From the NCBI RefSeq assembly GCF_013391635.1, contig NZ_JACAWU010000002.1, positions 1,178,001-1,242,000 of the forward strand: a stretch of 64,000 bases of DNA. Reading direction: 5' to 3'. Origin of the DNA: Natronomonas gomsonensis (lineage in GTDB: Archaea; Halobacteriota; Halobacteria; Halobacteriales; Haloarculaceae). Under the pieces are notes generated by a model. That model searched no databases, was not told the DNA's origin, and worked only from the letters and a program-made list of their open reading frames with translations. Of this stretch, positions 17,118 through 56,639 are shown one piece after another (the stretch's first letter is position 1; each line of letters opens with the position of its first letter). The position numbers and the translations under genes are program-made.

Positions 17118-17347
17118 CCCTGTCGTTGCTCTGCGATGAGCACGTTAAGAGAGTCTTTATCAGGGAGCTCAGGGCCAATGGATACGGTGTTGAGTGGGTT
17201 TCGGATGACTATGAGTCTGGTCGATCCGATTCGGAACATCTCAAGTACGCTGTGGAGAATGATCTCGTGCTGCTGACCAACGACACGGACGTTCTCCGGT
17301 TGCACGATGACTATCGCCACTCGGGACTCATCGTATACGACGAATAG
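17114..17347 (+). CDS. DUF5615 PIN-like toxin, probably C-terminally truncated
   Basis: Begins LSLLCDEHVKR, the first acidic site (D-E) of the DUF5615 Mut7-C/PIN-like fold, and continues to VLLTNDTDVLRL and SGLIVYDE. It then stops at 77 residues, whereas the proteins I know are about 105 to 120 long, so the last helices seem lost. It overlaps the DUF433 stop as ATGA. It would be an RNase toxin if active; the missing C-terminus makes this doubtful. Confidence 0.75.
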   Translation: MTLSLLCDEHVKRVFIRELRANGYGVEWVSDDYESGRSDSEHLKYAVENDLVLLTNDTDVLRLHDDYRHSGLIVYDE

Positions 17348-17495
17348 ATCTTTCGCGTCCTTCTGCCGCAATATCAACACATCACCAGTGGCACCCACAA
17401 CCCGAGGGGCGAGACGCGAAGCACGAGCGATGTGGGGGCATCATTTCTTTCAACGATAAACGATTAGTATAATGGCCTGAAGGTTTCGCCCAACG

Positions 17496-18914
17496 ATGTC
17501 GTCCACCGACAGCGATGACACAGCGCCGGAACTCACACTCGGTCGAGATCCCGACGCACTCGGTGAAACGGTGCCCCTGCCGCCTGGCGCGCTCGATGAC
17601 GGCTGTTACGTCGCGGGCAATCGCGACCGGCGGACTGCCATCGTTCAGCGATGGTGTGTCGAATTGGCTGCAGCGGGGCACGGGTTTTGCTACATCCACC
17701 CGTCTGACCCAATGCCACGCGATCTCTTAGCGAGGCTTCCCCAGGAACGCCTCGAGGACGTCGTCTGGATCGACGCGGGTCGATGGCAAGTGGCCTCTAA
17801 GTTAGATGTGCCAGCGGTAGAGCGCGTCGCGGTCAACCCATTCGAGGCACCGCCAGATCGGGACGCGTTCACGACCGATCCGGTCGCCACCAGAGTGAAT
17901 GCGTACATGGATGCGGCAACAGTGTGGGACCGGTTCGACGCCGCTGTCGCCCCCATCCTCTCGGCTATCCTGCCCGCGCTGTTCGAGGGTGAGGAGCCGT
18001 ATTACGAGTATCCGGCTGCACTCAGGGAGGCGGATTTCAGGGATTCCTTCGAACCCCTCAAGGAACTCGACGCCTTGGATTCGCTGACACCGTTCGAACT
18101 GGCACAAACACGCGAAGGTCAACCCGTACGGCTTGCAGCGTCGCTCATCAGCGGGCCGCTCGACCCCGGGCCAAGCAATCCACTGCTCGGTGACTCGACC
18201 TACGATCCGGCTCGTGCTCTCACGGAAAACGAGATCATCTTGATCACAGGCGACATCGACCCGTTCAAAGAGACGGATCCAACGATGGATGGCACCATCG
18301 CCACCCATCTCTTGGTGGCAGCTGTGTGCTGTCGGCTCTGGGAGGGCGCCCAAACGACAGCGACGGAGAGGACCTTTCCGGTCGTCGTCGATGGTGTCGA
18401 CACACTGGTTCCCGGCGACGGTGATCTGTTCCGGAAGCTCCTCGCCGACCCCGTGTCGCTAGCTCCTGTCTACGCCGGCCCCCCGGCGAGGACGCTTGCA
18501 GAACCGGTCCACATCAGTGTCGAGGAACACATCGAGACCCGCGTAGGCGTCACGGACGGCGCCGGAAGCGGACCTGAATCACGGGACCGAGATCAGGATC
18601 TCAAAGCCGCCCTCTCTAACGGGTCGCTGGATGCCGCCGAACACTATTTCGACCAGGAGGAGGCCGGAACGGTTGGGGAAGGCCCGCTCTGTTGGCTCCG
18701 GACGAACGCCGCCGGGCGATTGGTTGGACCCGAGGGGGTACAGCAGTCGATGCGTCCAGCGCTGGCTCCCGACCCGCCAGACACCCGGCGTGGCCAGGAG
18801 GCTGTCGCCGCGGCGATCACACGGAGCATCGATCGCTACGGCGGGGAGTTACAGACGGTGTCCGAGGAATCGAAAACACGGGCTCGCGAGCGATACAACG
18901 ATTCCAGTCGCTAG
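17496..18914 (+). CDS. P-loop-degenerate relative of HerA/VirD4 coupling ATPases (copy 1)
   Basis: 472 residues, paralogous along its length to the protein at 56909-58366. The order of elements near the N-terminus copies coupling ATPases: a strand and loop (CYVAGNRDRRTAIVQRW) where the Walker A loop should be, then AGHGFCYIHP, DLLARLPQERLEDVVWID and VNPFE, which match the G-x-G-F-x-x-I-D-P and dll-x-x-i-P-x-x-R-x-x-D segments of TraD/HerA proteins. The G-x-x-G-x-G-K-S/T motif itself is absent. Later it has TENEIILITGDID and LWEGAQT. I infer a non-hydrolysing structural partner of a mobilisation ATPase. A TATA-like tagtataatgg lies 30 nt before the ATG. No ATPase gene adjoins this copy, unlike copy 2. 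Confidence 0.65.
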   Translation: MSSTDSDDTAPELTLGRDPDALGETVPLPPGALDDGCYVAGNRDRRTAIVQRWCVELAAAGHGFCYIHPSDPMPRDLLARLPQERLEDVVWIDAGRWQVASKLDVPAVERVAVNPFEAPPDRDAFTTDPVATRVNAYMDAATVWDRFDAAVAPILSAILPALFEGEEPYYEYPAALREADFRDSFEPLKELDALDSLTPFELAQTREGQPVRLAASLISGPLDPGPSNPLLGDSTYDPARALTENEIILITGDIDPFKETDPTMDGTIATHLLVAAVCCRLWEGAQTTATERTFPVVVDGVDTLVPGDGDLFRKLLADPVSLAPVYAGPPARTLAEPVHISVEEHIETRVGVTDGAGSGPESRDRDQDLKAALSNGSLDAAEHYFDQEEAGTVGEGPLCWLRTNAAGRLVGPEGVQQSMRPALAPDPPDTRRGQEAVAAAITRSIDRYGGELQTVSEESKTRARERYNDSSR

Positions 18915-18985
18915 CCACGCGCCGACACCACTATTCGTTTTGCTGTCCTGTTCTCTCTGAAAGCGGCAGGGATTAATCTCTCCGT

Positions 18986-19020
18986 ATTAACCAACAAATA
19001 CGGTCACTATGTTGGTTAAT
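18986..19020. repeat. TTAACCAACA/TGTTGGTTAA inverted repeat (site E)
   Basis: Perfect 11-bp arms attaaccaaca (18986-18996) and tgttggttaat (19010-19020) with a 13-bp spacer. Similar repeats stand at 39748-39778, 52711-52741 and 56485-56515, and a related form at 54697-54741. It lies between the end of the degenerate coupling-protein gene and the 3' end of the minus-strand SWIM gene, so it could be an operator or an element end rather than a simple terminator. Confidence 0.85.
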
Positions 19021-19049
19021 TTTGTTTGCCTCAGCTTCCGCTGCGGCTG

Positions 19050-19553
19050 TTACTGGTTTCTCGACATCTTTTTGCCAGTCTGAGACGATTCCGGACAACA
19101 GTCTTCGAGGTCCTTCTTGCGCATCGCCTCTCGTCCACAGGCCCGACACCGAAAGTACGACTCTCCGGTGGGATTCCCATGCTTGTCGAGTTCCTGTAGC
19201 GGGCCTTCGATTCGGCCACTGGTGGGTGCTTGGGAAGGACCTCTCACCGATTCCTTCACGCCGCCATCCGCACGCGGGCGTTCTGGAAGCCGACCGTCCG
19301 GCGTTGGAACTGTTCGGTTTTGAATTTCCATGTCGACCCGCCGGAGATGCTTACATCGATTGACCGAGGCTTTCTGTTGGTCCGGGCAGGTGCACCCCTT
19401 TCGGAGTACATCAACCCGATACACGTTTCCAGATTCCGACTGCACCGTGTATATGCCGCCCGAACGACGGAGTGTGACCGTCATATCCTCCGTTCGTGCT
19501 CGTTTAGTCCGCTGGTCGATGTCGTTGTGATTGTCTGGTTCGTCTCCTTGCAT
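19050..19553 (-). CDS. SWIM zinc-finger protein
   Basis: About 167 residues from the ATG at 19553 (the longer frame to 19661 runs through the leader hairpin). The SWIM motif CxCx(n)CxH is visible as CTCPDQQKASVNRCKHL. A second Cys pair, FRCRACG, near residue 145 suggests another small zinc site. SWIM domains bind nucleic acid or protein. Proteins of this kind are common on haloarchaeal plasmids, often near replication or transposition genes. The gene carries the GACGGG-loop leader hairpin shared with TFB, DUF932 and ArdC genes of this window. Confidence 0.75.
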   Translation of the reverse strand: MQGDEPDNHNDIDQRTKRARTEDMTVTLRRSGGIYTVQSESGNVYRVDVLRKGCTCPDQQKASVNRCKHLRRVDMEIQNRTVPTPDGRLPERPRADGGVKESVRGPSQAPTSGRIEGPLQELDKHGNPTGESYFRCRACGREAMRKKDLEDCCPESSQTGKKMSRNQ

Positions 19554-19582
19554 GGAATCACGGGTGCAGGGCTGGACTCGCC

Positions 19583-19612
19583 TGCGCCCGCCCGTCGGGC
19601 GCACGACAAAAC
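19583..19612 (-). promoter_or_regulatory. GACGGG-loop leader hairpin before the SWIM gene
   Basis: On the minus strand: gttttgtcg, then stem tgcgccc, loop gacgggc, stem gggcgca, ending 29 nt before the ATG. The same layout occurs at 22446, 29929, 36827, 45872 and 47680. Confidence 0.7.
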
Positions 19613-19642
19613 GGAACCGGTACGTCACGCGCTGAATATTAA

Positions 19643-19660
19643 TGATACTATAGAGTATCA
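19643..19660. promoter_or_regulatory. Perfect inverted repeat in the SWIM promoter
   Basis: tgatact-atag-agtatca, 7-bp arms, in an AT-rich stretch about 90 nt before the SWIM start. Beside it are two copies of agtacga (19669-19692). It is a likely operator or promoter element; TATA-like sequence (aatatta) is at 19636. Confidence 0.5.
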
Positions 19661-29989: not shown

Positions 29990-32900
29990 TCACGCGCGAC
30001 GGCGAATGACCAACCAGCTTCCGAGGAGAAGCCCGATAAAGATAGCTCCGAAGGCGAATCCGAATTGGGGATCGGACTCTGGACTCGCTGTCGGGCTAGA
30101 TTCGGTCGGTGACTGGCTGACAGTCGTGGTCGCAGTCGATTGTGTGGACTGTTGATCATCAGCCACTATAGCGAATGGTGAGAACCCGTCTGTGCGAGCA
30201 ATCACCGCGAGTCCATCCTCGGTATCTTCGACCGTACTGTTGAGTGTTCGCCACTCATCGTTCTCGTAGTGCAGAACCGTGATATCATCGGCGTTTGTGG
30301 ATTCTGTTTCGTTCCGCGATAGCTCAAATCTGATTTCACCGGCCGAATCGGTGGCCGCATCCGGAACCTCGATGTCGTAAGTGGCCAGCTCCTCACCAGG
30401 AGCAGGCGTGTCCGTCTCGGTAGCTGGCTGAACAGCAACCTCACCAGTTGTGGATTCGTTGAACTCGATGCTAACCACGCTGATCGAATCGTTGTCGAAG
30501 GTTACCGCTGCAGTACCGTTCGAGGCCGAAATCTCTTCAGTAACATGCGTTTGATTCGCCGTGTCGGGCTCGGTATACGGAGTGGGTGTCGAATCATCAG
30601 TCTCGGGTTCCGGATCGCCTGAAGATGGATTGGCGTCGCCTCTGCCACCGTTGTTAGCCGGTGCCGTCGTCTCCATTGTCGTCGGCGTTGCCGTTTTCGT
30701 CGGCGTCGCTGTTTGAGTCGCGGTGGGCGTTTCCGTCTCAGTGGGTGTGGGCGTCTCTGTTTTCGTTAGCGTCGCAGTGGGCGTTTCCGTTGCTGTTGGT
30801 GTCGCAGTAGGCGTTGCTGTTGCCGTCGGCGTCGCTGTTTGAGTCGTGGTGGGCGTTTCCGTCGCAGTGGGTGTGGTCGTCTCCGTTTCCGTTGGCGTCG
30901 CTGTAGGCGTTTTCGTTGGCGTCGCGGTGGACGTTTCCGTCTCAGTGGGTGTCGCAGTAGGCGTAGGCGTTGCCGTTGGTGTCGCAGTAGGCGTTGCCGT
31001 TGTCGTCGGCGTCGCAGTAGGCGTAGGCGTTGCCGTTGGTGTCGCAGTAGGCGTAGGCGTTGCCGTTGGTGTCGCAGTAGGCGTAGGCGTTGCCGTTGGT
31101 GTCGCAGTAGGCGTAGGCGTTGCCGTTGGTGTCGCAGTAGGCGTTGCCGTTGCCGTTGGTGTCGCAGTAGGCGTAGGCGTTGCCGTTGGTGTCGCAGTAG
31201 GCGTAGGCGTTGCCGTTGGTGTCGCAGTAGGCGTAGGCGTTGCCGTTGGTGTCGCAGTAGGCGTTGGCGTCGCCGTGGGCGTCGGTGTCGATGTACTCCC
31301 TTCCGAATCTACTGAGACTGTCCGTATGGCGGTGTTCTTGTGGCCGTCCGGATCGGTAATCGTCACTTCGACCCTGAACGTATCGCTGCGGTCGAACGTG
31401 TAATTCGGCGTTGCATCAGTACTTCCCTCATCCGGGAACGACCACTCGTAGGACTCAATCGACGGCGAGTTCGAGTGCTCGAGACTGAACTCGACAGGTT
31501 CGTTCGCCTTAGGATTTCGCGAATGCTTGATTGTTAGGTTCTCGGCGACAGCGCCTTCGGAAACTGCGGCGAGCCGTTGCTCATACCCATCACCAACACG
31601 GAGATACAATCGACCATCAGCCGGAACGAAATCCCGAATGGACTCTTCGCTGTGGTACGTCCATGTTTGTTCCCCGGTTGCCGCGTCGAACATCGTCAAA
31701 TTCCGCTCCGGGAAGAACTGCGAATCCGTCCCGGTTCGAGCGTATATCTCCCCGTCGGCAACGACGAGCCGGCCGAGCGAATCGGTCTCGGTCCGCCAGT
31801 CACGCGTGCCGTTCTCGATGTCGACTGCGTGGATGGTATCACCGGTTGTAATGTAGGCCGTCCCATCCGCGACCGCCTGCACGCGCGCATCTCGTGACGT
31901 GTTGAACCACCATTTGTTGGTCCCGGAATCAGCGTCTATACCGGTGACATTTCGGTTACTAATCTCTCGCTGCTGCTCCCTATCCCAAGCAATGAACTCC
32001 TCGTGCTCCGCGATGACCATTCCATCGAGGCTCGTATGTGTAGCCTGTCTGGATTTGGCCGTCCACTCGATCGTACCGTTGTCCCGATTTAGTGCGTGGA
32101 GATGTGACGTGTTCTCGAAGATTAACGAATCGCCGGCCAATGTGAGATCCTCAAGGCCATATTCCCCAGGTATCGTCGTCTGCCATTCGAGGCCTCCCCT
32201 CGTATTGTACTTGTAAGTCGTATTGTGGTCCGTGATGTAGACGCCTGTCTCAGTCGCCAGCTTTTGGTTCGGCCGGTCAATTTCTGTCGTCCAATCAATC
32301 ACCCCGGTTGAGCGATTGTGAGATCGGAGTAGGAAGCCACTGTGTTCTGCCTCATCGAAGCTATACAGCGTGTCGTCCGTGATCATCGGTTCCGACATCG
32401 ACTGCCCGTGCTCGTTCGACTGATTCCAGCGACGATCTCCGGTGGCCGCGTCGACGGCGACGAGTTCGTCCTGGGATTTGACGTACACCGTTCCGTTGGC
32501 GACGAGTGGTTGACCGAATATCGACCCCTCGTTGCTGAATGGGGAGTGCATCCAGATCTGTCTGGCACTGCCGTGCGGCGCAGCCGCGTCGGGATTCGAT
32601 GCTGTTCCTGCCGCGTTGCCATCCTCGTGAGTCCAATCTGGGCCACCGAGGGGTTGCACGGACTCGTAGCTGGGCCGAACTACAATCGATCGGCTAACGC
32701 TGTCGGTATAGTTGTCACCAACCGTCTCCACAGTCACCGGATATACACCCGGTTCGGAATAGGTGTACTCCAGTTGAGCCTGCGTAGTGTTCCGTTCGAC
32801 ATCTCCATCGTCGTCGAGGTCCCATCGGTAGGTATCGATGTCGCCACTCGTGCCCCCTGCATCGAAGACAACCGGCGTGTCGACCCGGGTGTCATTCGGG

Positions 32901-38311: not shown

Positions 38312-38433
38312 AGGTCGTGGCTGCGCGCGCAGCGACTGCGAGACGCGACCTCAGGGAGCGTCTCGTACTGTGCGAACGGTGAGTGCAGCGAGCCGTGAGC
38401 ACTAGCGAGCACGGAGCGGTGGGTGGGGAGGTG
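38312..38433 (+). repeat. Left conserved segment of cassette A
   Basis: Starts aggtcgtggctgcgcgcgca and contains the hairpin gagacgcgacctcagggagcgtctc. Nearly the same 120 bp is found at 51021-51142, and related hairpins at 54485-54511 and 56259-56283. It lies between the ATPase stop and the 3' end of the RPA-like gene. Confidence 0.85.
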
Positions 38434-38480
38434 GTTGGTGGGTGGCGGTCACAATAAAAAGAAAAGAGCTGCCTACGAGC

Positions 38481-39296
38481 TCACCACCAAGCCGCTCGTT
38501 CGGGGAAAGTGACCGTCGACCGCCCGGTGAGTGCGAGTGACGCCCGCCCTCGGTACCAGCTCACCGCCGCATCCCTGATGCGAACCGTCTGGCCTTCGGC
38601 GATGATGGGTTGATTTGAGCGCTTCCACACCGTCAGCTTGGTTTTCCCTGTCTCGTCTTCCAGCAAGCCAACTTGTTGCATCGAGGGACTGCTGGGCTCC
38701 CACAGCGTCTCGACTGTCGCTTCGATATCCACCCACTTGCGACCGACTTGCTCCAACTTCCCGAGTGCCACGATCGCCCCCGGCGCCGCCTGCACGTCAT
38801 CGACCATGTCCAACACCGCATCCTGCATCGACCGACCGCTCTCGACACGGGCAGCCAACTCCCGTTCGATGGCTTCGACACCGAGACCACCGCGACACTT
38901 CCCGTCCAACCGGATGGCCTGTTTCTCGACCTCCCGCCGCGTCTCGATGTCTAACTGCTCACGTGGATCTGCCTCACTGGACAACCCACAGTGTTTCGCC
39001 TGCGTCATCTCCCGGCACAGTTCCTCGCGCCGACTCGTCTGGGCGCGGTCCTCGCGCTCACGAGTCCGCTGTTTTTCGGCTTCTCGCGCTTCCCACTTCT
39101 CTTGGGCTTCCAGTGTCATCCCGTGGGGGTGGTCCTGTTCGTCAGCCGCCGCAATCGCATCACGCACGTCCGAGTCAATCTTCGCCTGGGTCTGCAGTTC
39201 AACCGTGGGGCGCAGCTCCGGGGTTTCCTCGACTGCTTCTTGTTCTGATTCCTGTTCGACCGAGACCTTTTCACGAATCGGGTTGTTACGTTGCAT
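38481..39296 (-). CDS. RPA-like single-strand DNA-binding (OB-fold) protein
   Basis: 271 residues. The first half is charged, Glu/Arg-rich and probably coiled (EKWEAREAEKQRTREREDRAQTSRREEL). The C-terminal 90 form an OB fold of the RPA type: KWVDIEATVETLWEPSSPSMQQVGLLEDETGKTKLTVWKRSN, then GQTVRIRDAAVSWYRGRASLAL. It would bind single-stranded DNA during element replication or repair. A CREM-like Cys pair (KCRGG, HCG) is incomplete, so no zinc site is claimed. The gene sits inside a conserved envelope shared with the divergent TFB gene at 51184. Confidence 0.75.
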   Translation of the reverse strand: MQRNNPIREKVSVEQESEQEAVEETPELRPTVELQTQAKIDSDVRDAIAAADEQDHPHGMTLEAQEKWEAREAEKQRTREREDRAQTSRREELCREMTQAKHCGLSSEADPREQLDIETRREVEKQAIRLDGKCRGGLGVEAIERELAARVESGRSMQDAVLDMVDDVQAAPGAIVALGKLEQVGRKWVDIEATVETLWEPSSPSMQQVGLLEDETGKTKLTVWKRSNQPIIAEGQTVRIRDAAVSWYRGRASLALTGRSTVTFPERAAWW

Positions 39297-39300
39297 TGGT

Positions 39301-39697
39301 CTTCACTGACCGAAGGCGCTCACCGAGCGTCCGACGCCCGCGACCTCACTCGCGGGTTTTCCACGGAACCGAACCGACCAGTCACGACTGCGCGCTCTCG
39401 CTCGCGCCTTCGCGAGCGCCCTCTGGGCGCGAGCGAGAGCGCGCTACAGACGGTGCACACAACCAGCCGCGCGCGGTGAGACCGCCCGGAACGCGCGTCC
39501 AGCGGAGTAAGCGTGGGGGGTGAGCACCCACTGGAGCGCAACCCCTCGCGCTTACCCGCTGGCGCCGAGACCATATTCACTTCAGCCCGGAACGGACGCG
39601 GGCGGTGCGGAGAGCGCCCGCATGCCCGGAATGGTCGGTCGCGAGCGCGTGGAGGGCGGCAGCGCCGAGCGCGGCGAGCCGGCTACCACTCACGGGG
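39301..39697 (-). repeat. Conserved GC-rich region of cassette A (5' of the RPA-like gene)
   Basis: About 400 bp with no gene. It matches 52262-52650 over almost its whole length: ccgaaggcgctcaccgagcg, the perfect hairpin gcgctctcgctcgcgcc...gggcgcgagcgagagcgc, ccagcggagtaagcg, gggtgagcacccactgg, and gcccggaatggtcggtcgcgag. Both copies stand directly upstream of a minus-strand gene. The hairpins suggest a structured leader or a recombination site. The small frames inside it are not conserved as protein. Confidence 0.8.
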
Positions 39698-39747
39698 TAA
39701 CCGTCGATTCCAGCCGGCCAGCTAACGAATGAAAACACGTCTGCTAA

Positions 39748-39778
39748 TTAACCAACATACTCGGGAGTTGTTGGTTAA
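39748..39778. repeat. Terminal inverted repeat of cassette A
   Basis: ttaaccaaca (39748-39757), 11-bp spacer, tgttggttaa (39769-39778). It stands 50 bp beyond the conserved GC-rich region, as in cassette B. The downstream stretch to 39874 shows nothing else I recognise. Confidence 0.85.
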
Positions 39779-39874: not shown

Positions 39875-40150
39875 ATGGCACCGCCGGTCAACATCGACGA
39901 GGAGGCGAAATCCCGTCTCGAGGAGTTGCAAGCTGAGATTCGACTCCAGACTGGCGAGAAGGTCACCGAACAGGAGCTTCTGACCAGCCTCATCAACGAT
40001 GCCTACGAATCCCGAGAAGCGATTATGGACTCGTTTCGTGAGTCGACGGTCCCGCTATCGGAGGCCGAAAAAGAGACGATACAAGCGGGTCGGATCAGCT
40101 CCGGCGTCGAGACGGACGAAGACTACGTCGACGACATCCTCTACGGATGA
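39875..40150 (+). CDS. VapB-type antitoxin
   Basis: 91 residues, acidic and helical: VNIDEEAKSRLEELQAEIRLQTGEKVTEQELLTSLINDAYESREAIMDSF. This is the ribbon-helix-helix-like pattern of haloarchaeal VapB antitoxins. The acidic tail VETDEDYVDDILYG would bind the PIN toxin. The stop overlaps the ATG of the following PIN fragment (ATGA). The toxin is broken, so this is probably an orphan. Confidence 0.78.
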   Translation: MAPPVNIDEEAKSRLEELQAEIRLQTGEKVTEQELLTSLINDAYESREAIMDSFRESTVPLSEAEKETIQAGRISSGVETDEDYVDDILYG

Positions 40151-40248
40151 CAGTACTCATCGATACGGGCGTGGTATACGCCGACCACGATACTGACGCG
40201 GCATGGCACAACGCTGCCAGCGGCGTTGTTCGACGCGGCAGAGCATGA
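40147..40248 (+). pseudogene. Truncated PIN-domain toxin
   Basis: Reads TVLIDTGVVYADHDTDAAWH, the first beta strand and first Asp of a PIN domain, then stops after 33 residues. The three other acidic PIN sites are absent downstream in any frame. It is coupled to the VapB gene by ATGA. The following 40249-40538 gap contains no recognisable continuation. Confidence 0.78.
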
Positions 40249-41720: not shown

Positions 41721-43190
<1,470 letters not shown>

Positions 43191-47762: not shown

Positions 47763-49292
47763 GCAAGGAGAATACCCGCGCCTTCAGGCGCGGGATGAAT
47801 CCGACACCCCCTCCACAATCCACCGCCGATGGCAGGCTCGGATATTCCACCATTCCCATTCCGAATCTTTACAAGAGATACGATTATAATCGATTATACA
47901 GGCGTTCAGAATGCTGGAAGTCCATCGCACCCACCGAGCAAAAATCCTCAACCACAGCCAGGTGGCTGAGATGCTTGACCTGCATGGATGGGATGCCAGC
48001 AAACTCTGGAACGTCGCCAACTACCACTCCCGCAAAGTCTGGGAGAACACGGGCGAGATTCCTGACCACGGCGACCTCAAAGACGAGTTGAAGACTCATC
48101 CAAAGTACAAGGGGCTGCATAGTCAGTCCAGTCAGCGCGTTCTGGAGGAACTCGCTGAAGCCTTCAACTCGTGGTACGGCAAGAGGAAGTCTGACGACCG
48201 AGCGAATCCGCCCGGCTACCGCAAGAAAAACTACTACGACCAACAGGGCCGCCGTGTCCACGAAGAACACCCTCGGTCAACGGTGACGTGGAAGCAAAAC
48301 GGCATCAAACACGACTCGAAAAACAATCGTGTTCGTCTGTCCAAAGGCGCGAATCACAAGGAACACCCCAAGGCGTGGGAATACATCCTTGTTGAATACG
48401 AGACACGACCCGGTGTCACCGTCGAAAACCTACAACAAGTCCGTGCAGTCTACGACAAGGCGAAAGGACGCTGGGAACTCCATCTCGTCTGCAAAGACGA
48501 AATCGAGACGCCCAACGCACCCGGCAACGAAACAGCGGGTGTTGACCTCGGCATCTGTAACTTTGCGGCGGTCGCGTACAGCACCGAGGAGGCTGAGTTG
48601 TACCCCGGCAATCGCCTGAAACAGGACGGGTACTACTTCCCGAAGGAAGTCGCCAAGTGCGACGATTCGGGGGGCGAACGAGCCACTCGTCTCCACGCGA
48701 AATGGTCGGAGCGCCGCACCCACTTCTTCCACAGCCTCGCCAAACACATCGTTGAACGGTGTGTCGAGCAAGAGGTTGGACAAATCAACGTTGGGAAGCT
48801 CGCTAGCGTTCGAGAGGACGACAACGGCGAGTCGAAGAACTGGGGGAAGCATGGGAACCTTGACTTGCACGGGTGGGCGTTCGACAGGTTCTCGAACATC
48901 CTCGAATACAAAGCGAAAGTCGAGGGCATCGAAGTCGTAGAGGTGTCCGAGCGTGACACGAGCAAGACGTGTTGCGTCTGCGGTAGAGAAGACGAGACTC
49001 AGCGTGTCGAACGCGGATTGTACGTGTGTGAGCCGTGTGATGCGGCCTATAATGCGGACGTGAATGGGGCGGAGAACATCCGTCTCGACATCAATCAAAG
49101 TAACTCCGAGTCTCCACCCAGCTTGGGTGGCGATAGGAGTACCGGCTGGTTGGCACAGCCCGGAGTCTACCTTCATGACCTCTCCCGAGGATTCCAACCT
49201 CGGACAGAGGTGGTAGACTGCAAACCCTAATATCCCAATCCAGCGGCGCGGTACCGTGGGATTCCCGCGTCTTCAGGCGCGGGAGGATGTCA
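47763..49292 (+). mobile_element. IS1341-type tnpB-only element (copy 3)
   Basis: Left end gcaaggagaata, perfect hairpin cccgcgccttcaggcgcggg (47775-47794), gaatccgaca. Right end hairpin cccgcgtcttcaggcgcggg (49264-49283), then aggatgtcaa. The hairpin arms of left and right are the same sequence within this element but differ from the other copies, showing that ends co-evolve within an element. No tnpA. Confidence 0.88.
47911..49230 (+). CDS. tnpB: TnpB-family protein (IS1341-type, copy 3)
   Basis: 439 residues. RuvC-I AGVDLGICNFAAV (Asp), zinc site CCVCG...CEPCD, last Asp in NADVNGAENI. At RuvC-II it reads QINVGKLASVRED: Gly at the canonical Glu position and a conserved RED a few residues later, as in copy 2. 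It has a small insert (KNYYDQQGRRVHEEH) before the STVTWK motif relative to copy 2. Confidence 0.92.
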   Translation: MLEVHRTHRAKILNHSQVAEMLDLHGWDASKLWNVANYHSRKVWENTGEIPDHGDLKDELKTHPKYKGLHSQSSQRVLEELAEAFNSWYGKRKSDDRANPPGYRKKNYYDQQGRRVHEEHPRSTVTWKQNGIKHDSKNNRVRLSKGANHKEHPKAWEYILVEYETRPGVTVENLQQVRAVYDKAKGRWELHLVCKDEIETPNAPGNETAGVDLGICNFAAVAYSTEEAELYPGNRLKQDGYYFPKEVAKCDDSGGERATRLHAKWSERRTHFFHSLAKHIVERCVEQEVGQINVGKLASVREDDNGESKNWGKHGNLDLHGWAFDRFSNILEYKAKVEGIEVVEVSERDTSKTCCVCGREDETQRVERGLYVCEPCDAAYNADVNGAENIRLDINQSNSESPPSLGGDRSTGWLAQPGVYLHDLSRGFQPRTEVVDCKP

Positions 49293-51020: not shown

Positions 51021-51142
51021 AGGTTGTGGCTGCGCGCGCAGCGACTGCGAGACGCGACCTCAGGGAGCGTCTCGTACTGTGCGATCGGTGAGCGAAGCGA
51101 GCCGTGAGCACGAGCGAGCACGGAGCGGTGGGTGGGGCGGTG
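51021..51142 (+). repeat. Left conserved segment of cassette B
   Basis: Nearly identical to 38312-38433, including the hairpin gagacgcgacctcagggagcgtctc and cacggagcggtgggtgggg. As in cassette A it stands just beyond the 3' end of a minus-strand gene. The preceding 50827-51020 stretch shows nothing I recognise. Confidence 0.85.
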
Positions 51143-51183
51143 GGCGTGGCGTGGTGGCCACAAAAAACGAAGGAGAGGACCCC

Positions 51184-52248
51184 TCAGTCGGCCTGCACCA
51201 GCCCCGGTAGCGCGTCGTTCGACAGCGACTGCAACCGTGCCTGCCCGATGTCGTGGACTTCTCGCGAGTAGCTTCGAATCTGGCTCTTCGACGTGGGGAC
51301 GACCGTCGACGCCGCCGCGACCACCTCGGCTTGCGTCAGATGTTTCTCGCTCGTCAGCCGATCGGCTGCGTACACCGCCGCCCCGGCCATCGCCATCCGA
51401 TGCGTGCCCGACCCAATGGCCTCCCTATCGGCCACTTCCAGCAGCCGCTCGCCGACGCGTACCAACTCGATCGCCGCCTCGACGTCGAGGACATCATCCA
51501 GCGCTGCGACGACCCGATCGACCGCCCGATCACGCACTGGTGGCGCTTCGACCTCGGTTTCGAGCCGGATCTTCCGCGCGCCGGCACACACTCGATCCAG
51601 CGACGCTTTCGCGTACTGGGCGACGTCCACCGGGTCGCGCTCAATGCCTGCGTTTCGGGTCGCTAACAGCATCGCCCCGGCCGCCAGCCCCTCCCAGGGC
51701 ATCCGACCACCGGGAAGCCGCTCACGCTTGGCCGCTTTCAGGTATCGGCTCGCATCCGTCTGGACGTGTTCGGGAATACTGAGGTTCGCCCCGAGCATCC
51801 CGATATCACGCATCCCTTCGTTGAGTCGCTGGTTCCGCCGATTGTGCATCGTGAACCGCTTGTGCCGCCGCCGCAGTCGCTCCATCCGGTCTTTCCGCTC
51901 GGAACTCAGCTGATTGCCCTTCCCATCGGTGTTAAGGAAGAACGTCGTCACGAGACCCTTATCCACTCGGAGTTGGTTCGTCGGTTCACACGACCACTCA
52001 CCGCTTCGATCGTCCGTCGTCGGTGCATGGTCCTTCAGCGTCGGCGTCCGATCCAGCGTCTCGACGGCGATGACGAGTCCACACTCGTCACACACCGACT
52101 CGTGGCCCCGCTGATGTACCCGGCCTTCACACTCCGGACACCGCGACTGCCACGACGCACCTCGCACGTCGACGACGCGCTCCGCGTCCGCTTCGTTCGT
52201 TTCCGATTCGACCGAATCTTCAAGTTTGATTACCTTCTTAGAATTCAT
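51184..52248 (-). CDS. Divergent transcription factor B (TFB-like)
   Basis: About 354 residues from the ATG at 52248. It has a zinc ribbon CPECEGRVHQRGHESVCDECG (about residues 36-56) and two cyclin-like repeats (MPWEGLAAGAMLLATRNAGIERDPVDVAQYAKASL; HRMAMAGAAVYAADRLTSEKHLTQAEVVAAASTVV). It is longer and more diverged than the TFB at 21489 and has a charged N-terminal extension. It may direct polymerase to element-specific promoters or act as an anti-TFB. It lies in the same conserved envelope as the RPA-like gene. Confidence 0.82.
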   Translation of the reverse strand: MNSKKVIKLEDSVESETNEADAERVVDVRGASWQSRCPECEGRVHQRGHESVCDECGLVIAVETLDRTPTLKDHAPTTDDRSGEWSCEPTNQLRVDKGLVTTFFLNTDGKGNQLSSERKDRMERLRRRHKRFTMHNRRNQRLNEGMRDIGMLGANLSIPEHVQTDASRYLKAAKRERLPGGRMPWEGLAAGAMLLATRNAGIERDPVDVAQYAKASLDRVCAGARKIRLETEVEAPPVRDRAVDRVVAALDDVLDVEAAIELVRVGERLLEVADREAIGSGTHRMAMAGAAVYAADRLTSEKHLTQAEVVAAASTVVPTSKSQIRSYSREVHDIGQARLQSLSNDALPGLVQAD

Positions 52249-52261
52249 TGGGTATTCTACC

Positions 52262-52650
52262 CCGAAGGCGCTCACCGAGCGCCCGACACCCCGTGTCCTA
52301 TCACGGGTTTTTCCACAGCGACCGACCAGTCACGACTGCCTTGTGCGCTCTCGCTCGCGCCTTCGCGAGCGCCCCCTGGGCGCGAGCGAGAGCGCGCCAC
52401 AGACGGGGAAGAAACAAGCCGCGCGCGAGCGACCTGAGCGGTGCGCTCGTCCAGCGGAGTAAGCGTCGTGGGGTGAGCACCCACTGGCGCGCAACCCCCG
52501 GCGCTTACCCGCTGGCGTCGAGACCAGATTCACTTTAGCCCGGAACGGGCGCTCGTGGTGCGGAGAGCGCCCGCACGCCCGGAATGGTCGGTCGCGAGAG
52601 CGCACCGCCAGCAGCGCCGAGCGCGGCGAACCGACCGCTTCGCACCAAAA
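52262..52650 (-). repeat. Conserved GC-rich region of cassette B (5' of the TFB-like gene)
   Basis: About 390 bp matching 39301-39697. It includes the perfect long hairpin gcgctctcgctcgcgcc...gggcgcgagcgagagcgc and the blocks ccagcggagtaagcgt, gggtgagcacccactgg, cgcttacccgctggcg and gcccggaatggtcggtcgcgag. The differences are scattered and do not preserve any reading frame. Confidence 0.8.
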
Positions 52651-52710
52651 ACCGTCTATCCCGGACCAATTGGCTGACAACCGAGAGTGAGTGGCCAATC
52701 TATCGACGGA

Positions 52711-52741
52711 TTAACCAACGTCTGAAGGACGTGTTGGTTAA
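52711..52741. repeat. Terminal inverted repeat of cassette B
   Basis: ttaaccaac (52711-52719), 13-bp spacer, gttggttaa (52733-52741). Its right arm provides the stop codon of the truncated antitoxin frame that follows on the minus strand. Confidence 0.85.
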
Positions 52742-54012: not shown

Positions 54013-54435
54013 CTACTGGGCATATTCGAAGTCTTCAGCAAGTTCAGCTTCGGTGTAGTGTCGAGGGATTTCTCGTTCACCGAGGAGCGTATGGAACTCG
54101 CGTTTAGACAGCTCGGCTAACGCACGGGCTTTGCTAAACGAAAGAACATCGCGTGCATAGAGTGACACTGCTAACTCCTGCTTCATCGCCTTCGATCGCT
54201 CCCCTTCTGGAATTCGCAATGCTTCATACACCTCATCGTCAATTTCGAAGGTGGCGATAGATACATATTGGATTACACGATTCTTGAGTGTTTGGCCCTC
54301 AGTGCTGGCGCGACCGCGCACTTGAGATCGAGAAAGTGGGATCGCAAACAGTACCCGATCCGACGACCCAGTCACATCTGACTGCTGCCCAACAGGCCGA
54401 CCGGCTGACGAGCGAGAACGTTCCTTCATTTCCAT
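54013..54435 (-). CDS. UPF0175 antitoxin, start uncertain
   Basis: The family core is clear: FEIDDEVYEALRIPEGERSKAMKQELAVSLYARDVLSFSKARALAELSKREFHTLLGEREIPRHYTEAELAEDFEYAQ. UPF0175 proteins are antitoxins of PIN-like (DUF3368) toxins. No such toxin lies downstream. The frame is open far upstream into cassette C, and the nearest ATG before the core gives an unlikely 50-residue Arg/Ser-rich prefix, so the native start may be lost. Probably an orphan. Confidence 0.65.
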   Translation of the reverse strand: MEMKERSRSSAGRPVGQQSDVTGSSDRVLFAIPLSRSQVRGRASTEGQTLKNRVIQYVSIATFEIDDEVYEALRIPEGERSKAMKQELAVSLYARDVLSFSKARALAELSKREFHTLLGEREIPRHYTEAELAEDFEYAQ

Positions 54436-54458: not shown

Positions 54459-54638
54459 ACCGTGGCTGTGCGGGCAACGACAGTGAGACGCGACCGAAGG
54501 GAGCGTCTCGAAAGCGAACGGCGAGCGGTTCGTGGTCGACCGGAGGAAGACCACGATAGCGAGCGGGGAGCACCGCGACCCGCGAGCAGTGAGCTGTGAG
54601 CGCATGGAGGGCGGAATGCGTCGAGCGCGGCGAGCCGG
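54459..54638 (+). repeat. Gene-less cassette remnant C
   Basis: 180 bp starting gtggctgtgcgggcaacgac and containing gagacgcgaccgaagggagcgtctc, the left hairpin type of cassettes A and B, and ending gagcgcggcgagccgg like their right region. It is nearly repeated at 56239-56412. The two copies flank the AbiE-like pair as direct repeats. Confidence 0.8.
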
Positions 54639-54693
54639 TATGTAGACGTTCTACAGGTTTCAGTATTGAGTGGTTCGGCATTTAAGTAAGCGA

Positions 54694-54741
54694 ATCAACC
54701 AATGCATTGGTTAGATATATAAGTACATGCGTTAACCAATG
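54694..54741 (+). promoter_or_regulatory. Operator-promoter of the AbiE-like pair with TTAACCAAT sites
   Basis: A perfect 16-bp palindrome aaccaatgcattggtt (54697-54712), a TATA-like gatatataag (54714-54723), then gttaaccaatg (54731-54741), whose last three bases are the start codon. The half-site matches the arms of the dispersed TTAACCAAC repeats. Repression by the encoded winged-helix protein is likely. Confidence 0.7.
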
Positions 54742-55359
54742 TACATGGCGCTATTGGCGAAGCCGGATAGAGAACGCGGATTCAACAAGGGACGAATCAT
54801 CCGCGTCCTGTTGAATCATATGGGGGACGGTTTGACGAAGTACCGATTAGCCCAACTATCAGAGGCATCCGAGCCATGGACGCGGCAGTACACTGATCAG
54901 CTCGAAGAACAGGGCTTGCTCGAAGGGACTGAAGTCGTTGCACCTGAACGGCTGTACCGGATATGGTTGGAGCAACGGATTGAGCCCAACCACTTGGAAG
55001 TGTCACTCCAACAGCCGATGGATCTGCTAGCAGAGACTGACTTGCGGTACGCGTTGACGACATACCAGGCAGAGAATCTTCATCAGGGACTTCTCTTCAC
55101 CTCGACGACTGACTTCTATATCGCTCCAGAAGAGATCACCGAGTGGCTTGCCATCATCGAGGACAATGGATTGCTAGGCGGTGGAAATACCCGAATCCGG
55201 GTGCTTGACGACCACGTCTTCTACAATCACCAGGAAGTCGATGGCTTCCCGACGGTGTCCATCCCCCAACTAATTCTAGATTTGCTAGCCGAAGGCGGGC
55301 CATGTGAAGAAGCCGCCGAGAAACTCATTGATTCGAATCATGGTGAGAACCAGTGGTGA
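54739..55359 (+). CDS. AbiEi-like winged-helix antitoxin/regulator
   Basis: 206 residues. The N-terminus is a winged helix: GFNKGRIIRVLLNHMGDGLTKYRLAQLSEASEPWTRQYTDQLEEQGLLEGTEVVAPERLYRIW. The rest is a mixed domain seen in type IV antitoxin-like proteins. It lies before, and overlaps, a nucleotidyltransferase gene, the AbiEi/AbiEii order. AbiEi proteins bind inverted repeats in their own promoter, and such repeats surround the start here. This is the only complete pair of this type in the window. Confidence 0.75.
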   Translation: MYMALLAKPDRERGFNKGRIIRVLLNHMGDGLTKYRLAQLSEASEPWTRQYTDQLEEQGLLEGTEVVAPERLYRIWLEQRIEPNHLEVSLQQPMDLLAETDLRYALTTYQAENLHQGLLFTSTTDFYIAPEEITEWLAIIEDNGLLGGGNTRIRVLDDHVFYNHQEVDGFPTVSIPQLILDLLAEGGPCEEAAEKLIDSNHGENQW

Positions 55360-56168
55360 GACAGTACTACGTCCCACAGGTGACGGAGCTCTCCGAACAA
55401 GAACTCCAGGCGGTATTCGAAACAGCTGAACCGCCGGTCTGTCTGCTCGGCGGTTGGGCAGTCCATCTTCACGTCTCCTCCGGGTTTCGCTCAGAACACG
55501 GCCGCGAATACATCGGATCACGAGACATCGACATCGGAATCCCCGTTGACGAGCAATTGGCTGGTGAGTGCCTTGCAGAAACACCGGTTGGTGAGTCTAT
55601 CTCGGCAATCGAAGCGTTGGGGTACACGAAGAGCCGGTTTGGATTCGTCCAGAACTTCCTCCGCGACAGTCAGGAACGAGTTAGCGAAAAGGAAGCCAGC
55701 GAGCACGGTATGCACGAGGTGTTCCAGGTCTACGTCGATGTTATCCCTGACACGACCGCGTTAGACGGATTCCGAGACGTCTTCGGGTTCAAACCACCAG
55801 CGGAGCCACTCTTACGACCGGTATTCGAAGCGGACGGGGGTGAGCCGTTGGCGGAGTACGTATCGTGGTCACCGTCTGCCGGAAAGCTGATCGTCTCACC
55901 GGAATTGCTGGCTGCAATGAAAATCCGCTCGCTACCCGATCGAGACAAGAGTCATAAACGAGTGAAGGATGTCGCTGACCTCCATGCCCTCCTCTGGTAC
56001 GTCACAGATTACACTGAGATGAAAGCCGGTGCACTGGAATACGTTTCCGACGCTGACGTGGATCACCTTACGGAAGCGTTAGACGACCAAGTATTCGAAA
56101 ACGCTGCGACACTTCTCCAGATCGAACCGCAACTCATCAGTGACTCGATTGACCGATTACTCCTCTGA
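55353..56168 (+). CDS. AbiEii-like nucleotidyltransferase toxin
   Basis: 271 residues from a GTG overlapping the antitoxin end. The core reads CLLGGWAVHLHVSSGF then GSRDIDIGIPV, the G-G-x-A and later S-x-D-x-D pattern of AbiEii/DUF1814-like nucleotidyltransferases, followed by ELLAAMKIRSLPDRDKSHKRVKDVADLHALLWY, the conserved K-x-x-x-x-R-x-K-D-x-x-D-L segment. Toxins of this group nucleotidylate targets such as tRNA. The protein looks complete. Confidence 0.8.
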   Translation: MVRQYYVPQVTELSEQELQAVFETAEPPVCLLGGWAVHLHVSSGFRSEHGREYIGSRDIDIGIPVDEQLAGECLAETPVGESISAIEALGYTKSRFGFVQNFLRDSQERVSEKEASEHGMHEVFQVYVDVIPDTTALDGFRDVFGFKPPAEPLLRPVFEADGGEPLAEYVSWSPSAGKLIVSPELLAAMKIRSLPDRDKSHKRVKDVADLHALLWYVTDYTEMKAGALEYVSDADVDHLTEALDDQVFENAATLLQIEPQLISDSIDRLLL

Positions 56169-56238
56169 CACCCTTCCACGACAGTAGTTATCCCTGAAAG
56201 GTCGGGTTTCCGCCCGCTACCTGTTACGCGTAGGGTTA

Positions 56239-56412
56239 CGGATGCGGGCAACGACAGCGAGACGCGACCGAAGGGAGCGTCTCGAAAGCGAACGGCGAGC
56301 GGTTCGTGGTCGACCGGAGGGAGACCACGATAGCGAGCGGGGAGCACCGCGACCAGCGAGCAGTGAGCCGTGAGCGCGTGAAGGGCGGAATGCACCGAGC
56401 GCGGCGAGCCGA
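56239..56412 (+). repeat. Gene-less cassette remnant D
   Basis: Direct repeat of 54459-54638, more than 90 percent identical by eye: gcgggcaacgacagcgagacgcgaccgaag..., through gaccacgatagcgagcggggagcaccgcgacc, to gagcgcggcgagccg. The shared hairpin is at 56259-56283. Beyond it comes a TTAACCAACA repeat at 56485. Confidence 0.8.
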
Positions 56413-56484
56413 CCGCTCCTCACCGAACGCCCGTCAATTCCCGCCCTGTTCACGAACGAGAGGGGACGACGAGGTGGATACGGT

Positions 56485-56515
56485 TTAACCAACAGACGGG
56501 ATGAGTTGTTGGTTA
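56485..56515. repeat. TTAACCAACA/TGTTGGTTA inverted repeat (site D)
   Basis: ttaaccaaca (56485-56494), 12-bp spacer, tgttggtta (56507-56515). It follows remnant D at about the distance seen in cassettes A and B and lies 125 bp before the winged-helix gene of the mobilisation module. The stretch 56516-56639 is AT-rich (aaaaatattacc at 56621) and probably holds that promoter. Confidence 0.82.
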
Positions 56516-56639
56516 CACTGAAGAGGACGACTCAGTACAGTTAAGCCATCAGGAACCCGGAACCCAAGCAGCGAACACGGCTTAGGTACGCTTAAGCCCC
56601 AAATATGTCCAGCATAGCAAAAATATTACCACAGCGAAT

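Follow-up and report, generated by a model that had tools for sequence, protein, structure and literature searches.

An AbiE-type gene pair of Natronomonas gomsonensis probably lies in the shell of a core-deleted TFB/SSB-type cassette

Short direct repeats mediate deletions in haloarchaea, and the terminal-only PATEs of Haloquadratum walsbyi are known as products of such repeat-mediated deletion (PMC3119063). The SMR-A units of Haloquadratum insert within palindromes (PMC3119063), and autoregulation by AbiEi works through inverted repeats in the promoter (PMC7319586). Here we describe a locus of the genus Natronomonas that shares traits with all three. It lies in a stretch of 64,000 nt (G000:C2:1178001-1242000, hereafter the window) of the 3.38-Mb genome of Natronomonas gomsonensis (G000), where two direct repeats, R1 and R2 (jointly R), flank an AbiE-type gene pair. 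The closest known system to R is that of the terminal-only PATEs, and R behaves like them, which we regard as a likeness only. Both are free of inverted terminal repeats and target duplications, carry hairpins near their ends and have ends that appear to have been joined when a short direct repeat mediated a deletion. R differs in its parent, which is a TFB/SSB cassette with a structured leader rather than an IS605-type transposon, in occurring as two copies only, and in flanking a toxin-antitoxin-type pair.

According to our alignment, R1 (54469-54637, plus strand) and R2 (56243-56411, plus strand) are identical at 161 of 169 bases, with 8 mismatches and no gap. This bears out the near-identical direct repeats that a first-pass annotation had drawn at 54459-54638 and 56239-56412, and the AbiE-type pair is, as had also been claimed, the sole gene pair between them. 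A repeat search of the window returned R as a two-copy family of 169 nt with 95% identity and a spacing of 1774. In the whole genome the full fusion of cassette ends that makes up R likewise has two copies, both at the AbiE-type locus only. The 5% divergence between R1 and R2 indicates that the duplication is not recent or that the copies came from different sources.

The ends of R recur in two cassettes on the minus strand of the window, cassette A (38317-39778) and cassette B (51026-52741). Common to both are a left end GTGGCTGCGCGCGCAGCGAC with a hairpin array, a minus-strand gene, a leader of about 340 nt and a right end, GAGCGCGGCGAGCCG or near it, which is followed by an inverted-repeat site TTAACCAAC-N-GTTGGTTAA. 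The product of cassette A is an OB-fold protein of the SSB/RPA type (gene 38481-39296, leader 39310-39647, inverted-repeat site 39748-39778) and that of cassette B a TFB (gene 51184-52275, leader 52262-52600, inverted-repeat site 52711-52741). In 25 genomes, 27 of the 29 exact left-end sites (some of them near-duplicates) lie where expected, just downstream of an OB-fold or TFB gene; the exceptions are a remnant in genome G007 and one site beside a SWIM-type gene. The left end is therefore a gene-boundary element, not an ordinary repeat unrelated to genes, and shells with other cargo are rare. The inverted-repeat pattern is found in the window at 39748, 52711 and 56485, as well as at 18987, where no cassette adjoins. 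A site of the form TTAACCAAC-N-GTTGGTTA is also present at G000:C2:1151533, and within this genome the sites are confined to one 83-kb region. Across the family, the site was detected in 18 of 146 genomes with 0 control matches, and its neighbours include TFB, Orc1/Cdc6, HerA-like and regulator genes. Cassette A is followed by a VapBC-like pair (39876-40221), in which the similarity to Natronomonas sp. CBA1123 (G016) ends at 40221 inside the PIN-domain gene; this gene is complete in CBA1123 and looks truncated in the window.

When a block of 59 nt is set aside, R1 matches the left part of cassette A (A_left) over 85 alignment columns, through GTGAGC, and then its right part (A_right) over 41 nt from GAGCGC onwards, with GAGC common to both. 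The A_left and A_right scores of both R copies range from 60 to 85, compared with shuffled maxima of 27-33. The ordered match with its GAGC overlap implies that R is a cassette minus its gene and nearly all of its leader, lost in one deletion. Judged by its sequence, R is the 3' end of a TFB/SSB-type cassette fused to the 5' end of the leader of that cassette, i.e., a core-deleted cassette. In R1, the part from the cassette 3' flank includes hairpin L (54485-54509, plus strand), in which stem arms GAGACGC and GCGTCTC enclose a GA mismatch, the pairs CC and GG and a GAA loop of the GNA type. The deletion junction with the leader 5' end is at the GAGC overlap (54598-54601, plus strand), and from there runs the copy of the cassette right end, the leader 5' terminus (54598-54638, plus strand), which aligns at 90% with the OB cassette of CBA1123. 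Both features that the first-pass annotation had assigned to each repeat, left hairpin (GAGACGCGACC..GGAGCGTCTC) and right end, are thus present and shared with cassettes A and B. Its description of R as gene-less versions of A and B holds for the kind of cassette, with the core deleted; yet A and B lack the 59-nt block, and we rejected a direct derivation of R from either of them to that extent. The ancestor of R was possibly an unblocked cassette of the same type. In a separate gene-less TFB cassette of G007 (L013), what remains is the 3' flank with the end of the TFB gene, fused to the 5' end of the leader.

R1 and R2 have unequal ends. A pattern scan placed the left-end 20-mer on the plus strand of the window at 38317, 51026 and 54462 only. 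The third of these, GTGGCTGTGCGGGCAACGAC (54462-54481), was also recovered by the A_left alignment and belongs to R1, while in R2 the left end is 8 bases short at its start. The reverse holds on the other side, where right flank and inverted-repeat site follow R2 only and are missing from R1. The flank (56412-56484, plus strand) attains A_right and B_right scores that 0 of 500 shuffles reach, and it leads into the site TTAACCAAC-N14-GTTGGTTAC (56485-56516). The right flank of R1 and the left flank of R2 score at chance level in the shuffle test. The left flank of R1, which is shared with CBA1123, bears a weak likeness to the cassettes, with 4 of 500 shuffles scoring as high. With one left end (54462) and one right end with its site (56485), R1 and R2 make better sense as the two edges of a single shell than as a pair of separate elements. 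We posit, with a probability of roughly 60%, that 54462-56516 is a third cassette shell, which encloses the AbiE-type pair and has the 169-bp core at both edges. To our knowledge, no enzyme accounts for the limits of this core, which counts against the shell explanation.

Within the shell, the gene in the toxin position (55353-56168, plus strand) encodes an AbiEii-family nucleotidyltransferase of 271 aa, which matches PF08843 with 26.4 bits at a cut-off of 22.5. The gene before it (54739-55359, plus strand) encodes a conserved protein of 206 aa in the antitoxin (AbiEi-like) position. It has no Pfam or NCBIfam match above cut-off, and comparison with Pfam, NCBIfam and PDB gave weak HTH similarity and no AbiEi match. 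PADLOC returned no match for the pair, and no useful solved structure was found for either protein. A candidate operator/promoter (54694-54741, plus strand) comprises the palindrome CCAATGCATTGG beside a TATA-like box ATATATAAGTA, and TAACCAATGTA, with a second half-site near the start. This architecture is kept in nine relatives, among which the sequence of the palindrome varies and its symmetry is largely retained. The predicted promoter architecture fits autoregulation of the AbiEi type. The two-gene operon, the PF08843 nucleotidyltransferase and the inverted repeats in the promoter agree with AbiE type IV toxin-antitoxin systems, from which the pair differs in the weak resemblance of its partner protein to known families and in its archaeal operator sequence. 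The predicted operator also accounts for the TTAACCAA words after R1. These had been annotated as sites following both repeats, which applies to the cassette-type site after R2; after R1, we rejected the words as a mark of a cassette end, since they form part of the AbiE-type operator. Pair and promoter together (about 54667-56169) show 75-81% conservation in genome G092 and on a Halobaculum plasmid, both without R. Because relatives carry it free of R and the upstream TTAACCAA words are part of its own operator, the pair looks like a later arrival.

In CBA1123, the left end of R with its 37-nt outer flank and block is located after a PIN-domain gene. Next come Fic-family and PemK/MazF-family genes, and beyond them a right end and site in degenerate form (score 109, shuffled maximum 57). 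Judging from its sequence, the shell of CBA1123 appears to be the same one, with Fic and PemK/MazF toxin genes as its cargo. The pair-free locus expected in a relative was thus found in part, with one copy of each end and no AbiE-type pair; it holds Fic/PemK cargo and is not an empty shell. A HerA/TraG-like gene lies 3' of the shell in the window (with two genes between), in CBA1123 and in genome G003, where the cassette before the HerA-like gene holds a TFB gene. Related strains thus have TFB or Fic/PemK genes at positions comparable to that of the shell. The left neighbours of the shell differ between the window and CBA1123, so that the loci are not fully syntenic. A locus with a single repeat and no AbiE was not found among 146 family genomes when the right flank of R2 was the query, nor with R1 in 20 genus genomes or 392 order genomes. 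Positions 54425-54432 mark a rearrangement breakpoint: here a UPF0175 gene is followed by R1, and in CBA1123 and G002 by sequence matching 17258-19643 of the window.

We propose that the locus may have arisen in two steps, and that a third could reverse the second. A single deletion at GAGC would have removed the gene of a cassette along with most of the leader, as the anatomy shows, whereby the 3' hairpins would have been fused to the leader 5' end; a hairpin unit of 59 nt would have entered the loop of the second hairpin. The AbiE-type pair would then have arrived in the emptied shell, which is suggested by the asymmetry of the flanks and by the relatives with a repeat-free pair. A circle with one core and the pair could have integrated by a single crossover, or the core could have been duplicated upon insertion. 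Either would leave the full left end outside R1, the full right end with its site outside R2 and the core on both sides. We infer the order of deletion and insertion, since the empty shell alone did not turn up in any genome. Finally, recombination between the R1 and R2 cores might delete the pair and restore the empty shell, while toxin-antitoxin function would select against this loss. By analogy with the haloarchaeal deletions via short direct repeats (PMC3119063), such a direct-repeat route for losing the pair is plausible, and the excised circle of the first-pass annotation is not required for it. The shell may represent a neutral landing place in an island beside the HerA/TraG-like gene. 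The locus would offer a sequence-level case of a toxin-antitoxin pair settling in a mobile island, where the leftover shell of a deleted cassette acts as the holding site and keeps the pair in a form that can again be lost by direct-repeat recombination.

Several other explanations were weighed against the shell. R1 and R2 had been interpreted as MITE-like, that is, as non-autonomous elements mobilised by a transposase that move the pair or excise it as a circle, and near-identical direct copies that bracket a single gene pair, together with their gene-less anatomy, would suit such elements. Under the MITE criteria as given in PMC10969869, however, terminal inverted repeats did not exceed chance in R1 and R2, whose scores equal the shuffle mean (reached by 698 and 576 of 1000 shuffles), or at the cassette ends (reached by 167-172 of 1000). 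No target-site duplication was detected, the flanks matching at neither R copy, and the ends are shared by TFB and OB-fold cassettes only and not by a transposase-bearing parent. Since the genome holds just two full copies, whose incomplete ends are moreover complementary, we consider a MITE-like origin very improbable. The absence of inverted terminal repeats, the near-terminal palindromes and the core deletion at a short repeat are all compatible with terminal-only PATEs in the strict sense, the cassettes being mobilised through their hairpins by transposases of the IS200/IS605 type, and a TnpB-like ORF (47911-49230) lies nearby. This is unlikely, given that the parent cassettes encode TFB and OB-fold proteins instead of TnpA or TnpB, that their left ends are tied to these genes as described above, and that R has not spread in its own genome.

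Hairpin L and related GA-mismatch hairpins are spread across genomes of the genus, and one might take R1 and R2 for ordinary intergenic hairpin repeats of haloarchaea, duplicated by chance beside the pair and with no cassette history. The ordered fusion of left and right ends with its GAGC overlap lies far above the shuffles, A and B show the same continuation into right flank and site, and the left end marks gene boundaries, all of which leaves this explanation little credit. A role in transcripts, where R would shield the toxin-antitoxin operon as a terminator or a leader-like RNA and mobility would be incidental, would agree with the cassette ends having come from a 3' hairpin array and a leader of strong structure. 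It is hard to reconcile with a pair that has its own conserved promoter/operator and occurs without R in relatives, and we regard it as highly doubtful. The shell around the AbiE-type pair remains our preferred reading.

The 59-nt block consists of two hairpins and is placed in R1 at 54529-54587 (plus strand), in the GGA triloop of hairpin M (GG^A), and in R2 at 56303-56361 (plus strand). Four different hairpins contain this unit (59-61 nt): hairpin M, in R and CBA1123; an arm of the leaders of pNRC200, Haloarcula and L132; hairpin L of the G007 remnant; and a different leader arm in G278. In all four hosts the unit splits a GNA-type triloop between its N and its A, and the uninterrupted form is seen in cassettes A and B, L119, hairpin L and L120 of G003. 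In the plasmid collection, the block of R was detected in the leaders of pNRC200 and a Haloarcula plasmid. Loci with the hairpin unit besides R1 include L161 (4006-4066), L102 and L170. The four contexts suggest that the unit was inserted into the triloops, and such hairpin-in-hairpin insertions are directly testable. Like SMR-A, the block is a short transposase-free unit inside the palindromes of other elements and has no target duplication; it differs in being roughly half as long, in showing no obvious inverted terminal repeat and in its position in GNA triloops, and its mobility is deduced from occupied/empty pairs only.

The hairpins share one rule: stem, GA, two pairs, a GNA-type loop, two pairs, GA, stem. 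Six GA-mismatch hairpins were counted in the window, all of them in cassettes A and B, R1 and R2, and the only identical dinucleotide mismatches of such hairpins there are GA/GA and its complement TC/TC. In 20 random stretches of 20 kb, we counted 2 in 200 kb of G000 (a sparse sample), 5 in 80 kb of G003, 0 in 60 kb of G004 and 6 in 60 kb of G007. Their occurrence at low density in random stretches indicates widespread units that are not specific to the AbiE-type locus. It may be that the ends of TFB/SSB cassettes in haloarchaeal islands generally act as reusable shells with exchanged cargo (SSB, TFB, AbiE-type, Fic/PemK) and that hairpins grow by unit insertion precisely into GNA triloops, as by a hairpin-targeting mini-element, a generalization that we offer as speculative and rather doubtful.

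Behind the cassette right end and before the SSB-type and TFB genes lies the leader, whose conservation extends to 63 of 146 genomes of the family and to 17 of 22 genera. Its consensus, derived from 19 sequences, has compensatory changes at 22 of 75 pairs. Rfam gave 0 matches for the leader or for R, and no description of the leader was found in the open literature. It represents a conserved, structured and apparently undescribed leader common to two unrelated gene families of haloarchaea. The OB-fold gene of pNRC200 (299 codons) is of the kind of the Rfa5/Rfa6 SSB-type genes reported from minichromosomes of Halobacterium salinarum (PMC5924565), and it shares both ends and the structured leader with the cassettes and also bears the hairpin block; the part of that report available describes neither a cassette architecture nor a leader shared with TFB genes. 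Elsewhere in the window, Rfam matches to sot0042 are located at 41729-41902 (minus strand) and 49098-49284 (plus strand), the latter below the gathering score and overlapping the 3' end of the TnpB-like ORF. The repeat search also revealed dense direct repeats of short period at 30650-31357, with 24 overlapping copies.
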